The notes beneath the pieces were generated by a model, which was not told the origin of the DNA, searched no databases, and worked only from the letters and a program-made list of their open reading frames with translations. From NCBI GenBank assembly GCA_019750095.1, contig JAIEOW010000052.1:1-64000 (forward strand): a DNA stretch of 64,000 nucleotides, written 5' to 3'. The number at the start of each line of letters is the position of its first letter. Position 1 is the stretch's first letter. Of the stretch, positions 38,086 to 47,950 are shown piece by piece. Source of the stretch: Phycisphaerales bacterium (GTDB lineage Bacteria > Planctomycetota > Phycisphaerae > Phycisphaerales > UBA1924). Made by a program: the position numbers and the translations under genes.

Positions 38086-40023
38086 ATGAGCGGCAAAGCT
38101 TGGATGTCTCTCGCGGCGCTCGCCGCCGCGCTCGTGCTCTTCGTGGCCGTCAATATCGTCGCGGGTCAGGCCATGCGCTCGGCTCGCATCGATCTCACCG
38201 ACGGCAAGCTCTACACCCTGAGCGACGGCTCGCGACTGATAGCCGCGAAACTCAACGATTCCGTCCAGCTCACGCTCTACGTCTCTCAGAAGCAGCTCTC
38301 CGAAGCACCCCCGATCCAGGCCTATGTCCGACGGGTGCGTGAAACCCTCGAAGAACTCGTCCGCGCCTCTGGCGGCAAGCTCACCCTCCGCACCGTTGAC
38401 CCCGAACCCTTCTCCGAAGCCGAGGACCGCGCCGTCCAAGCCGGCCTTGCCGCCATTCCGACCGGTGCCGGTGGCGAACGCCTCTACTTCGGCCTCGTCG
38501 GCTCCAACAGCGTCGACCAGACCGAGGTCATCCGCTTCTTCGATCCGCAGAAAGAGTCCTTCCTCGAGTACGACCTCACCCGACTCATCTACCTCCTCTC
38601 CAACCCCACGAAGAGCTCGATCGGCATCATGTCCTGGCTCCCCATCGAAGGCCAGGAGGGCAACCCCATGATGGGTGGCCGAGGCGTGCCCGCGTGGCAG
38701 ATCCATCGCAAACTCAAGGAGCTCTTCGAGGTCAGATCCGTCGCAACCTCCGCAACCGAGATTCCCGCCGACGTCAAGGTCCTCCTCGTCATCCACCCCA
38801 AGGGCATCTCCGAGCCCACCCAGTACGCCATCGATCAGTTCGTGCTGCGCGGCGGGCGAGCCATCGTCATGGTCGATCCCAACTGCGAAGCCGACGTCCC
38901 CCCCGGCATGAACCCCATGCAGGCGATGCAGATCCCCAAGGCCAGCGATCTTCCCAAGCTCTTCTCCGCATGGGGCATCGAACTCGCCAAAGACAAAGTC
39001 GTCCTTGACCAGGCCTCCGCCGTCAGCGTCCGCGTTGGCAGCGATGCTCGCCCCGAAACCGTCCCCTATGTCGCCTGGCTCATGATCGGCGGTGACAATC
39101 GCGCCTCGGGCGATCCCATCACCGGCCAGCTTGAACGCATGTTCGTCGGCACCGCCGGCGCCATCACCAAGAAAGACGGCACGGCCACCAGCGTGCAGCC
39201 CCTGCTGACTACCTCCGCCACCGCCATGCTCGGCGACGCCTCGCTCGTCTCATTCATCCCTGAACCGAAGAAGCTTCTCGCCGAGTTCAAACCCGGCAGC
39301 ACCGCTCTGACTCTCGCCGCCCGCGTCACGGGCAAGGTCAAGAGCGCATTCCCCGACGGCCCACCCGCCGCGGCCCCGCCTGCCGAGGGCCAGCCCCCCA
39401 TTCCTCCCCCAACCCAGCCGCACATCGCCGAATCCGGCGAGCCCATCGACGTGGTCGTGATCGCCGATTGCGACATGATCGCCGACAAGTTCTGGATCAA
39501 TGAAGCCCGTCTCGGCGGCATGCTCCTGGGCTATGACGAGTTCAGCGATAACGGTTCGCTGCTCGTCAATGCCGCCGACAACCTCAGCGGGTCGAAGGAT
39601 CTCGCCTCCCTCCGCGCCCGCGGCAAGTTCTCTCGCCCCTTCACCAAGGTCGAGGAACTCCAGAAGGCCGCCCAGCAGTCTTATCAGGCCAAAGAGCAGG
39701 AGCTCCAGAAGAAGCTCCGCGACACTGAGCAGAAGATCAGCGACATGCAGCGCCAACGCCCTGATTCAAAGGACAACCGCGTCCTGCTCACCCCCGAACA
39801 ACAAGCCGAGATCGACAAGTTCCGCGCCGAGATGATCGCCACTCGGCGCGAGCTGCGGGACGTGCAGTTCCAGCTCACCAAGGACACCGAGCGTCTCGGC
39901 ACCACTCTCAAAGCCATCAACATCGGGCTCATGCCCCTGCTGGTCGGCGCAGGCGCTCTCGGGCTCGCGGCCTATCGATCCTCGCGGAGGCGTGCCGACC
40001 GCCTCGCCTCCGCCAAGAGCTGA
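38086..40023 (+). CDS. GldG-like auxiliary protein of an ABC transport system
   Basis: 645 residues. A membrane helix near the N-terminus (about 7-27), then the GldG/ABC-auxiliary domain: IDLTDGKLYTLSDGSRLIA, LTLYVSQKQL, LRTVDPEPFSEAEDRAVQAG, LTRLIYLLSNP, and VLLVIHPKGISEPTQYAIDQFVLRGGRAIVMVDP. A coiled-coil-like region (QAKEQELQKKLRDTEQKISDM) precedes a C-terminal membrane helix and a basic tail. Such proteins act with an ABC ATPase and permease, usually encoded directly upstream; here the upstream neighbour is the divergent GT4 gene and no ABC gene is visible. The DUF4340 gene 48 bases downstream is the usual partner. Confidence 0.88.
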   Translation: MSGKAWMSLAALAAALVLFVAVNIVAGQAMRSARIDLTDGKLYTLSDGSRLIAAKLNDSVQLTLYVSQKQLSEAPPIQAYVRRVRETLEELVRASGGKLTLRTVDPEPFSEAEDRAVQAGLAAIPTGAGGERLYFGLVGSNSVDQTEVIRFFDPQKESFLEYDLTRLIYLLSNPTKSSIGIMSWLPIEGQEGNPMMGGRGVPAWQIHRKLKELFEVRSVATSATEIPADVKVLLVIHPKGISEPTQYAIDQFVLRGGRAIVMVDPNCEADVPPGMNPMQAMQIPKASDLPKLFSAWGIELAKDKVVLDQASAVSVRVGSDARPETVPYVAWLMIGGDNRASGDPITGQLERMFVGTAGAITKKDGTATSVQPLLTTSATAMLGDASLVSFIPEPKKLLAEFKPGSTALTLAARVTGKVKSAFPDGPPAAAPPAEGQPPIPPPTQPHIAESGEPIDVVVIADCDMIADKFWINEARLGGMLLGYDEFSDNGSLLVNAADNLSGSKDLASLRARGKFSRPFTKVEELQKAAQQSYQAKEQELQKKLRDTEQKISDMQRQRPDSKDNRVLLTPEQQAEIDKFRAEMIATRRELRDVQFQLTKDTERLGTTLKAINIGLMPLLVGAGALGLAAYRSSRRRADRLASAKS

Positions 40024-40071
40024 TTCCTCCCCACCACCAACATTCACGCACCCGTTCCGGGAACCATCCGC

Positions 40072-41289
40072 ATGAATAGCAAGGCCGTGGCCATTCTGGG
40101 AATCCTCGCCGTCGTCGGCGTCGTCGGCGCGATCGTCGTCACCCGTTCAGGTTCGCCCGAGAAAGCCGTCATCGGCGAAACCGCCAAGCGCGGCGCCTTC
40201 CTTCCGGACGTCGCCAAGCGAGCCAACGACGTCGCCAAGATCACCATCACCCGCGCCACCGAGACACTCACCATCACCGGGACAGACGGCAACTGGCAGG
40301 TCTCAGAGAAAGGCGACTACCCCGCCAAACTCGAGAGCGTTCGCGCCGTCGTCCTGGGCCTTGCCGAGCTGCGCGAGATCGCGCCCAAGACCAGTCGCCT
40401 CGAACAGTTCCCAAAGCTCGGCGTCCAGGACCCAACTCCTTCCGCACCCGGTGCCGACGCCGACGTTCCGCAAAGCACCCTCGTCACGCTCGCCGATAAA
40501 GAAGGCAAGCCGATCGCCTCCATCATCATCGGCAACCCCAAGCCGGGCATGTCGCCAGAGACCTATGTCCGCCGTGCCGGGGAGAATCAATCCTGGCTCG
40601 TCGCCGGTCGCGTCGAGATTCCGCGCGACGCCGCCGGTTGGATGGACACCAAGCTCGCCGACATCAAACGCGAGCGCGTCAAGAGCGTCAGCGTCACGCA
40701 CCCCGATGGAAAGCTCGTCCGCGTCAGCCGCGCCCAGCAGAGCGACGCGATGGCCCTCGAATCCATCCCCGCGGGCAAGGAGCTCAAAGATGCCGGAGCG
40801 CCCGAGAGCATCTCCGGCGCGCTCAATGGGCTGATGTTCCAAGACGTCGCCGCGCTCACCAAGTTCGACCCCGCCGCCCCGACCGGCGACGACAAGCCCG
40901 GCCCCAGGATCGAGGTCCGCACCTTCGACGGCCTGGTGATCAACATTCAAAGCGTCACCCACCTCGGCCGCTCTTGGTGGCGATTGTCCGCAAGCGTTGA
41001 CGAAGCCGTGCTCGCCACGCTTCCGCCCGCGCAACCCGCACCCGCCGAGGGCGAAAACACCGACGCCGCCAAGCCCGCCGCCATGTCCCAAGACGGCCTC
41101 CGCGCTGAAGCTGCCAAGCTCAACGCAAGCTGGGCCAAGCACGCCTTCGCGCCCTCAGACTGGAAGGTCCGCACGCTGAACTCGACGATGGACGAACTCG
41201 TCCGCGATCCGCAGCCGGCAACACCCGCACCGAACCAACCACCCAGCCAAGGCCTGCCGCCGGGCATCATGCTCCCGCCTCAGGGCTGA
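40072..41289 (+). CDS. DUF4340 domain protein
   Basis: 405 residues; an N-terminal membrane anchor (about 5-23) followed by an extracytoplasmic beta-rich region with VAKITITRATETLTITGTDGNWQV and KLESVRAVVLGLAELREIAPKTS, the DUF4340 signature. The C-terminus is Pro/Ala-rich. In planctomycetes this protein commonly accompanies the GldG-like protein and its ABC transporter. Its stop overlaps the convergent membrane-protein gene by 10 bases. Function unknown. Confidence 0.85.
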   Translation: MNSKAVAILGILAVVGVVGAIVVTRSGSPEKAVIGETAKRGAFLPDVAKRANDVAKITITRATETLTITGTDGNWQVSEKGDYPAKLESVRAVVLGLAELREIAPKTSRLEQFPKLGVQDPTPSAPGADADVPQSTLVTLADKEGKPIASIIIGNPKPGMSPETYVRRAGENQSWLVAGRVEIPRDAAGWMDTKLADIKRERVKSVSVTHPDGKLVRVSRAQQSDAMALESIPAGKELKDAGAPESISGALNGLMFQDVAALTKFDPAAPTGDDKPGPRIEVRTFDGLVINIQSVTHLGRSWWRLSASVDEAVLATLPPAQPAPAEGENTDAAKPAAMSQDGLRAEAAKLNASWAKHAFAPSDWKVRTLNSTMDELVRDPQPATPAPNQPPSQGLPPGIMLPPQG

Positions 41290-43513: not shown

Positions 43514-43637
43514 GGCAAAGAGCATACGACGCAGGATCATCTCAGCCACAACGCGCAACCGGAACTCAAGACGCGAAAACACCCAGCCATCGCAACCTCC
43601 TCTCCGACTACGCGGTAGCATGCAGTCAGGAGCTGTC

Positions 43638-44630
43638 ATGCACGCCAAGACCATCTCACTACCGACGCTCGCCCTCGCCACGATCCTCGGCACGATCAGT
43701 GCCTGCACACCAACCAACAACGCCTCACGCGTCGCTCAAACCACCCATCAGCACGCGCAGCCGTCGATCCCGCTGCCAACGCTCGACGCGTCCAAGCCCC
43801 TCGACTATCCCGGCATCCACAACGTCGTCGCCTATCACGATGGCTTCATCTCCGGCAGTGTCCCCGAAGGCGACGCCGGCTTTCGAACCCTCGCGGGAAT
43901 GGGCATCAAGACCATTATCAGCGTCGACGGCGCGGTGCCCGAAGTCGAGAAAGCCAATGCGCTCGGCATGCGATACATCCACCTGCCCATCGGCTACAAC
44001 GGCTTCGACGAAGATCGCAAACTGCAGCTCGTCCGTGCCACGCGCGACGCGATGGCCACCGGCCCCGTCTACATCCACTGCCACCATGGCAAGCACCGCA
44101 GCGCGGGCGCCGCAGCCGCCGTCGCCGCAAGTCTTGGATGGCAGACCCCGGAGTTCGGCGTGGATCGCATGAAAGTCTCCGGCACAGCCCCAAACTACAA
44201 GGGCCTGTACGCCGTGGCGGGAAACGCAACGCTGCTGAATGTCAGTACCATCAACGCCGTGCCCGCAAACTTCCCCGCCATCGCCAAGCCCTCCGGCTTT
44301 GTTCAGGGCATGGTGGAGATTGACGCGGCGTACGACCATCTCAAGGCCATTGAAAAAGCTGGTTGGATTACACCCACCGATCACCCCGACCTCGTCCCCG
44401 TCGCCGAAGCCGGTCGCCTGGCCGACCTCTACCGCACGCTCGGCGAAAGCGACTACACGAAACGCAAACCCTCCGACTTCGCTCGGCTGCTCACCAGAAG
44501 CAACGAAGAGGCCCAGAAGCTCGAAGACCTCCTCGCCGCACCCGGCCCCAAAGACCCCGCTGCCCTCAGCGCCCAGTTCAAGCTCATCGCGGCGTCGTGC
44601 AAAGAGTGCCACGTAAAGTATCGCGACTAG
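43638..44630 (+). CDS. Lipoprotein fusing a CX5R dual-specificity-type phosphatase with a CxxCH cytochrome motif
   Basis: 330 residues. A lipoprotein signal ends in ISAC (Cys23). Residues about 60-190 form a protein-tyrosine-phosphatase-like domain: LAGMGIKTIISVDG, then IHCHHGKHRSAGAAAA with the CX5R loop Cys148-Arg154 followed by Ser155. At the C-terminus CKECHVKYR (Cys321, Cys324, His325) is a CxxCH heme-binding motif followed by YR, as at the end of cytochrome c' proteins; residues about 225-320 are helical, fitting a four-helix cytochrome c'-like bundle. Start: ATG at 43638 with AGGAG 5 bases upstream. An extracytoplasmic, lipid-anchored protein is expected, where c-type heme attachment is possible. 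The combined activity is not known to me. Confidence 0.85.
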   Translation: MHAKTISLPTLALATILGTISACTPTNNASRVAQTTHQHAQPSIPLPTLDASKPLDYPGIHNVVAYHDGFISGSVPEGDAGFRTLAGMGIKTIISVDGAVPEVEKANALGMRYIHLPIGYNGFDEDRKLQLVRATRDAMATGPVYIHCHHGKHRSAGAAAAVAASLGWQTPEFGVDRMKVSGTAPNYKGLYAVAGNATLLNVSTINAVPANFPAIAKPSGFVQGMVEIDAAYDHLKAIEKAGWITPTDHPDLVPVAEAGRLADLYRTLGESDYTKRKPSDFARLLTRSNEEAQKLEDLLAAPGPKDPAALSAQFKLIAASCKECHVKYRD

Positions 44631-46951: not shown

Positions 46952-47905
46952 CTACTTGTACCCCGTCGCCGCGAACAAACTCGGCCCCCGCGCCGCCGTA
47001 TCCGTCGGCAGCGGCAACACCCGCGGATCACGCAGATCCGCCTGCGAGAACATCACATCCACCCCCTGCAGCGAGAACCCCAGCCACCGATGCCCCATCG
47101 CGTGCTTGTACGCCACGCGATCGTGCTCGATCATGTCCACCACCATCACCACCCCGCCGGGCCGAACCACGCGCCGCATCTCGCGCAGCACGCCCGTGGG
47201 TGACTCCACATGGTGCAGCACCAGCAGACACACCGCAGCGTCCACCGACGAGTTTGCCAGCGGCAGCTTCTCCAGCCGCCCCTCCACAAAGTCCACGTTC
47301 GTCAGCCCCGCCGACGCCATCCGCTTCCGCGCCGCGTCCAGCATCACCGTGGACTGATCCACCGCCACCACGCGCTGCACCAGCGGCGCGAGCAGCTCCG
47401 CCGCATTCCCCGTGCCACATCCAAGGTCCGCCACCGTCCAGTGCCGCGGCAGCATCTGCAACAACCCAAGCGCCGCAAACCGAGTCCCAAACAACTCCGT
47501 CCGAACATCATCCCACTGCCCCGCAAGCCGACCAAAGAACGCCTGCGCATCCTCCCGCCGCTCGGCCAGCACCGACGCCAGCCGCTGCATGTCGTCCTCG
47601 ATCTCCTGCATCACCCCCGCCGCCGCGGCCCCATACTCATGCCGCGTCGCATCCCGCACCGCCACCCAGATCGCGCGCGCTGCGTCGTTCAGGTCATCCT
47701 GCACCAGCCGATAAAAAGTCGCCGTCCCCTCGGCCCGCTTCACCACCCACCGCGTCTCGCTCAGCACTTTCAGGTGCCGACTGACCGTCGACTGCGGCAA
47801 CTGCACAACCTTCGCCACCTCACCCACGGCAAGCTCTTCGCGCTCCAGAATCCGCAAGATGCGCAGCCGAACCCCATCGCTCAACGCGGCAAGCTGGTCG
47901 GTCAT
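46952..47905 (-). CDS. ArsR-family repressor fused to a SAM-dependent methyltransferase domain
   Basis: 317 residues. The N-terminal winged helix reads [44 protein letters not shown] (ArsR/SmtB type, without visible metal-site Cys). From about residue 125 it has a Rossmann methyltransferase: [55 protein letters not shown]. Proteins of this layout (SahR-like) are known to repress genes of the SAM/SAH cycle, and here ahcY lies directly downstream, so it may sense S-adenosylhomocysteine. I use ATG 47905; ATG 47932 is in frame, but it falls within the operator-like palindrome 47927-47950 and would leave almost no leader. Confidence 0.88.
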
Positions 47906-47926
47906 GGCAATGGTCGGGGTCGCTCG

Positions 47927-47950
47927 CTTCATCCGTATATCCGGATGAAG
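47927..47950 (-). promoter_or_regulatory. 24-base operator-like palindrome upstream of the ArsR-methyltransferase gene
   Basis: cttcatccg and cggatgaag (perfect 9-base arms) flank tatatc. It starts immediately downstream of the -10 box of a likely promoter and covers the expected transcription start, so bound repressor would block initiation. The symmetric core ATCCG-N6-CGGAT suits a dimeric winged-helix protein; autoregulation by the ArsR-type protein is inferred. Confidence 0.65.

Follow-up and report, generated by a model that had tools for sequence, protein, structure and literature searches.

A TpbA-like DSP fold joined to a class II c-type cytochrome in a predicted lipoprotein of Planctomycetota

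Within the window, by which we mean the whole stretch of 64,000 nucleotides that was analysed (contig JAIEOW010000052.1 of a Phycisphaerales bacterium), one gene on the forward strand encodes a predicted extracytoplasmic protein in which an enzyme-like fold is followed by a cytochrome-like domain. Its codons occupy positions 43638-44627, and the stop codon lies at 44628-44630. The features of the locus, in window coordinates, are:

43628..43632, + strand: AGGAG, resembling a ribosome-binding site, 5 nt 5' of the ATG; read directly
43638..44630, + strand: DSP / class II cytochrome c lipoprotein gene, 330 aa, stop included; homologues found by searches
43638..43706, + strand: signal peptide with lipobox I20-S-A-C23; read directly from the sequence
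43800..44237, + strand: DSP/PTP-fold domain, residues 55-200; AlphaFold2 model, Foldseek match to TpbA, profile search of the PDB
43926..43928, + strand: Asp97, a position held by Asp/Glu in almost every heme-linked form and by Arg in non-heme relatives
43998..44000, + strand: Asn121, at the alignment position where TpbA has its general acid, Asp105
44079..44099, + strand: P-loop C148-H-H-G-K-H-R154; read directly, conserved in relatives
44271..44627, + strand: class II cytochrome c (c'/b562-like) four-helix domain, residues 212-330; Pfam, profile search, fold model
44310..44312, + strand: Met225 in helix A, probable sixth heme ligand; AlphaFold2 model and conservation
44598..44612, + strand: heme c attachment motif C321-K-E-C324-H325; read directly, conserved in relatives

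The lipobox cysteine (ISAC23) lies where the first-pass annotation had placed it, and the product is, from its sequence, a predicted lipoprotein. A lipobox-like motif was found with a simple pattern in 55 of 94 relatives; the remainder have other secretion signals or membrane anchors.

AlphaFold2, run with an 83-sequence alignment, modelled the protein (pLDDT 92.7) as a DSP fold with four helices C-terminal to it. The top Foldseek match was TpbA of Pseudomonas aeruginosa (TMt 0.76), with DUSP23 and the DUF442 protein 3gxh next, so that model and match both place the N-terminal domain in the fold of the Cys-based PTP/DSP superfamily; TpbA also ranked first when a profile of the domain was searched against the PDB (50.4 bits). 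For PTP-SAK (PF22784) the window protein scored 24.1 bits, just under the cut-off of 27, which one relative (L146) passed, and 53 of 83 relatives matched this family at E ≤ 0.001. For BLH_phosphatase/DUF442 (PF04273) its score was 19.6 bits, below the cut-off of 26.1.

The signature loop reads HCHHGKHRS, that is, HCX5R followed by Ser, with Cys148 and Arg154 at the residues annotated earlier; both are invariant among relatives, and Ser155 is kept in 86 of 94. With three His, one Lys and one Arg, the P-loop is unusually positive. The general acid Asp of the superfamily is replaced by Asn121 in the window protein, a column that holds Asp in 45 and Asn in 37 of the 94 relatives, and for this reason classic phosphatase activity is uncertain. 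The protein may nonetheless be a phosphatase, since the D105A variant of TpbA, with efficiency down by only 53%, keeps about half of it (PMC4409338). Equally compatible would be DUF442-like chemistry on sulfane sulfur, or a substrate whose leaving group is a good one. The view that CX5R phosphatases are usually cytosolic, expressed in the first-pass annotation, was too strong: TpbA, the closest solved relative, targets periplasmic tyrosines (PMC4409338). At the column of residue 193 (44214-44216), 65 of 94 relatives have Cys, within GLYACA, and the window protein has Val; in those relatives this Cys may provide a second thiol close to the active site.

The C-terminal 100 residues had been described as helical and as ending in CxxCH. 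The motif (C321KECHVKYR) and the helices are as described, but the domain is longer, a complete four-helix domain of about residues 212-330 with CxxCH near the C-terminus of the predicted bundle, as in class II cytochromes c. Pfam Cytochrom_C_2 (PF01322) matches residues 277-329 at 31.3 bits (cut-off 26.5) through the C-terminal half of the profile only. A PDB search with a profile of the heme domain gave cytochromes c' at 34.9 bits; cytochrome b562 matched too, at about 22 bits and over nearly the full length of the domain. Modelled alone, the domain reached a pLDDT of 96, and its best fold matches were to cytochrome c', with weak E-values of the sort common for four-helix bundles.

Helix A has a single invariant residue, Met225. 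In the AlphaFold2 model it lies about five residues from the start of that helix, and His325 about three residues from the end of helix D. The heme ligands of cytochrome b562 are Met7 and His102, and the relative placing of Met225 and His325 is the same. An HMM alignment with a b562 sequence, which agrees with the range of the PDB profile match, puts Met7 one helical turn off Met225 on the same helix face, and we therefore call Met225 a probable, not a proven, ligand. In cytochromes of the b562/c-556 type, the sixth ligand is expected to be a helix A methionine, which gas-binding cytochromes c' lack. Hemes of the low-spin His/Met type serve electron transfer, not gas binding. We infer that the axial ligands are probably His325 and Met225 and the heme a low-spin, electron-transfer one; the invariant methionine would point away from a cytochrome c' in the strict sense, with a five-coordinate heme open to gases.

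Relatives are abundant and almost confined to Planctomycetota. The search for them gave 173 matches, 80 of them listed, a set biased by two seed peptides that contained the motifs; further searches that were not seeded with motifs were relied on instead, and they agree, with CHHG and CxxCH in 29 of 29 loci (L106-L134). Across an even draw of 392 Planctomycetota genomes, 213 had some match and 131 a full-length match to both domains; the pairing is thus kept in about a third of the sampled species, from many families. Adhaeretor mobilis (L069), a planctomycete in culture, is among its carriers. Cys148 and Arg154 are present in all 94 alignment rows and in 128 of 128 fused domains, Met225 in 94 of 94 rows, and CxxCH in each of the 92 untruncated rows. 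Borderline matches, checked singly, keep CxxCH wherever the contig continues; one possible exception, L191, sits at a contig edge. Judged by this conservation, the fusion of DSP domain and cytochrome is not a chance one. Loss of the C-terminal helices or CxxCH, or variation at Cys148 or Arg154, had been named beforehand as outcomes that would speak against the annotation, and none of these occurs among the relatives. Close relatives are also carried by four records named Chitinophaga, Leptolyngbya, Kuenenia and Limnohabitans (L028, L030, L055 and L061), which are probably misnamed or contaminated MAGs.

Some relatives carry further domains. One genus (G027, G031, G035; locus L086 is an instance) has a secreted glutathione peroxidase fused in frame at the N-terminus (PF00255, 129-138 bits), pointing to a thiol/peroxide redox role; outside that genus, glutathione peroxidase was not found as a general neighbour. 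The unit follows a Na/Ca exchanger in L145, where the P-loop is degenerate (TCETGRDR) and CxxCH is kept, and a Na-nucleoside transporter in L146. These three were the only extra domains with Pfam support among the long frames scanned; open frames of up to 1318 aa in some relatives were considered as fusions and set aside, as they look like high-GC open frames. The variety of N-terminal partners indicates that the anchor is interchangeable, and the heme attachment motif leads us to expect an extracytoplasmic position in every fusion type.

The two domains also occur as neighbours. In three deeper lineages (G041, G170, G181) a DSP gene without cytochrome is followed, in the same orientation, by a distinct cytochrome gene whose product has a signal peptide of its own; at L184 the pair shows an overlap of 4 nt. 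Among the 30 genomes with only non-fused relatives, a clear A2-type cytochrome match adjoins the DSP gene in three; three more have A2-type matches near the threshold, unlinked to the DSP gene. The DSPs with His153 in these 30 genomes are exactly the three with the adjacent A2-type cytochrome. Non-heme relatives have Arg97 (26/26) and Asp153 (25/26); fused forms have Asp97 (126/128) and His153 (127/128); split forms have Asp/Glu97 and His153 (3/3). In a tree of moderate support with an assumed root, non-heme relatives (100/98) and fused forms (86/89) make up separate clades, and the split forms branch off between them. As read from these sequences, this placement would fit an order of events in which the gene pair came first and the fusion later. 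The switch from Arg97/Asp153 to Asp97/His153 was probably a single evolutionary event, and the agreement of signature with cytochrome therefore does not count as several independent tests. Retention of the fusion, the adjacent split pairs and an active-site signature that tracks the cytochrome argue together for a functional link between the two domains. One split-type DSP gene (L157, 19-972, minus strand), near a contig end, seems to contain a second DSP-like repeat in degenerate form and to have an unusual N-terminal region.

Clustering of flanking ORFs at 80 loci found no widely common neighbour, hence no conserved operon and no operon-based clue to a substrate; the clusters above noise (ABC ATPase, HlyD, histidine kinase) lay at unrelated positions or were limited to near relatives. 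The small four-helix membrane protein encoded directly downstream (169 aa) had been suggested as part of the same system, a suggestion we reject: it has no Pfam or NCBIfam match, and a search of 40 relatives, roughly half of them carriers of the lipoprotein, found no homologue. What stands of the original proposal is a predicted extracytoplasmic unit of CX5R fold and c-type heme, in its two domains and their joint conservation, together with the lipoprotein assignment and the notion of cysteine chemistry linked to a heme; control by a gas is weakened, and the downstream partner falls away. No RNA element scored above the gathering thresholds near the gene. The genome encodes a CcsA-type heme assembly protein, and ResB was not detected in a search of it, leaving the c-heme pathway half identified; maturation of heme c in the host is plausible. 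In Planctomyces sp. SH-PL62 the gene is borne on plasmid pPL62-1 (L199, 5854-6816), with a DUF3365 gene some 1 kb away and a cluster of cytochrome c oxidase/SCO genes nearby. Elsewhere in the window, a minus-strand gene at 46952-47932 joins an ArsR-type helix-turn-helix and a SAM methyltransferase domain in one protein and lies directly upstream of, and in the same orientation as, an S-adenosylhomocysteine hydrolase gene; it is possibly a regulator of the SAM cycle, and no known riboswitch was found near it. Tandem ABC_transp_aux (GldG-like) and DUF4340 proteins are encoded at 38086-41289 (+).

The function we propose, and to which we give about an even chance, is that of a redox-coupled extracytoplasmic cysteine enzyme of PTP fold, in which a TpbA-like DSP domain works with a class II c-type cytochrome. 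The proposed sequence of steps is as follows: the protein would be the fused form of a two-part module, with one covalent heme, held at the membrane by its lipid anchor. Periplasmic redox carriers would set the oxidation state of the heme, which in turn would exchange electrons with Cys148 of the P-loop or gate it allosterically. The enzyme would be active, or Cys148 kept reduced, in one redox state only, and activity would follow the redox state of the envelope. As the general acid is not fixed among relatives, the reaction would most likely take phosphate, or a comparable group that has a good leaving group, off a substrate in the envelope. Several observations count against this redox-coupled reading, namely the lack of an operon clue, Asn121, the degenerate P-loop beside an intact CxxCH in L145, the offset of Met7 in b562, the gap left by ResB in the c-heme pathway, and a signature switch that may go back to one event and not to repeated coupling.

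Sulfur or oxyanion redox chemistry is an unlikely alternative, though one to be taken seriously: the P-loop would bind thiosulfate, a persulfide or another oxyanion, Cys148 would form a covalent intermediate, and the heme would take up or donate electrons. DUF442 proteins of the same fold (3gxh/3gxg) are among the structure and profile matches, the Cys and loop-end Arg of their CX5R motif perform sulfane-sulfur transfer, and one DUF442 domain sits on a sulfide:quinone oxidoreductase (PMC8533005). The three His and one Lys of the P-loop, the unconserved general acid and the glutathione peroxidase fusion, which suits thiol chemistry, lean the same way. However, the PF04273 score is below its cut-off, TpbA is nearer by both sequence and fold, and no sulfur-metabolism genes are conserved as neighbours at the 80 loci.

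The gas sensor proposed in the first-pass annotation, in which NO or CO bound at a five-coordinate cytochrome c' domain would control the phosphatase, now seems improbable. Cytochromes c' are indeed the best Pfam and PDB matches, and PMC12889525 reports a sensor domain that binds NO and bears a c-type heme motif of cytochrome origin; the invariant Met225, however, predicts a six-coordinate heme, and the His/Met cytochrome b562 likewise matches the profile across the domain. There is an even slimmer chance that the DSP domain does no catalysis and only offers a binding platform, with the protein no more than an electron carrier anchored to the membrane. Loss of the general acid in about half of the relatives and the state of the L145 P-loop would suit such a role, but the retention of P-loop Cys and Arg in every fused relative exceeds the expected need of a scaffold.

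If the redox-coupled reading is true, a phylum-wide family directly ties the redox state of the envelope to the chemistry of a cysteine enzyme through a covalent heme. Cysteines of the PTP type are sensitive to oxidation and have mostly been studied in the reducing cytosol. The family may even represent a new enzyme class, of PTP-fold cysteine enzymes that perform electron-coupled envelope chemistry with their own or a separate c-type heme, which passed from gene pair to fusion and took on the Asp/His signature in place of Arg/Asp for redox work; we advance this tentatively, as doubtful. To work with, the family offers a single protein open to testing, together with versions that occur in nature as a split pair and as a peroxidase fusion.

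A search of open-access text found nothing relevant on a DSP-cytochrome fusion, and the pairing appears to be undescribed. Its parts have known counterparts. TpbA, the periplasmic DSP of P. aeruginosa (PDB 2m3v, 4r0s), shares the DSP fold, the HCX5R P-loop and the extracytoplasmic location, but has no heme domain, reads HCKHGNNRTG at the P-loop, has Asp105 as general acid where the window protein has Asn121, and is not a lipoprotein-cytochrome fusion. PTP-SAK DSPs differ from the window protein in the Arg97-to-Asp and Asp153-to-His changes and the cytochrome partner of the latter. The DUF442/BLH sulfurtransferase domains (3gxh) share the PTP fold, CX5R and a place in redox sulfur metabolism (PMC8533005), but the described cases have no cytochrome partner, and the Pfam score of the window protein for them is sub-threshold. 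Class II cytochromes c (c', c-556; PF01322) and b562 share the four-helix bundle and the C-terminal CxxCHxxYR; the window protein differs in being fused to an enzyme-fold domain and, unlike the gas-binding c', has the invariant helix A Met. Finally, the Cache-type c-heme sensor domains, as described in PMC12889525, likewise combine a cytochrome-derived covalent heme motif with an extracytoplasmic module, but they have other folds and serve as the sensor of a signalling protein, whereas the heme domain here is joined to an enzyme-fold domain.
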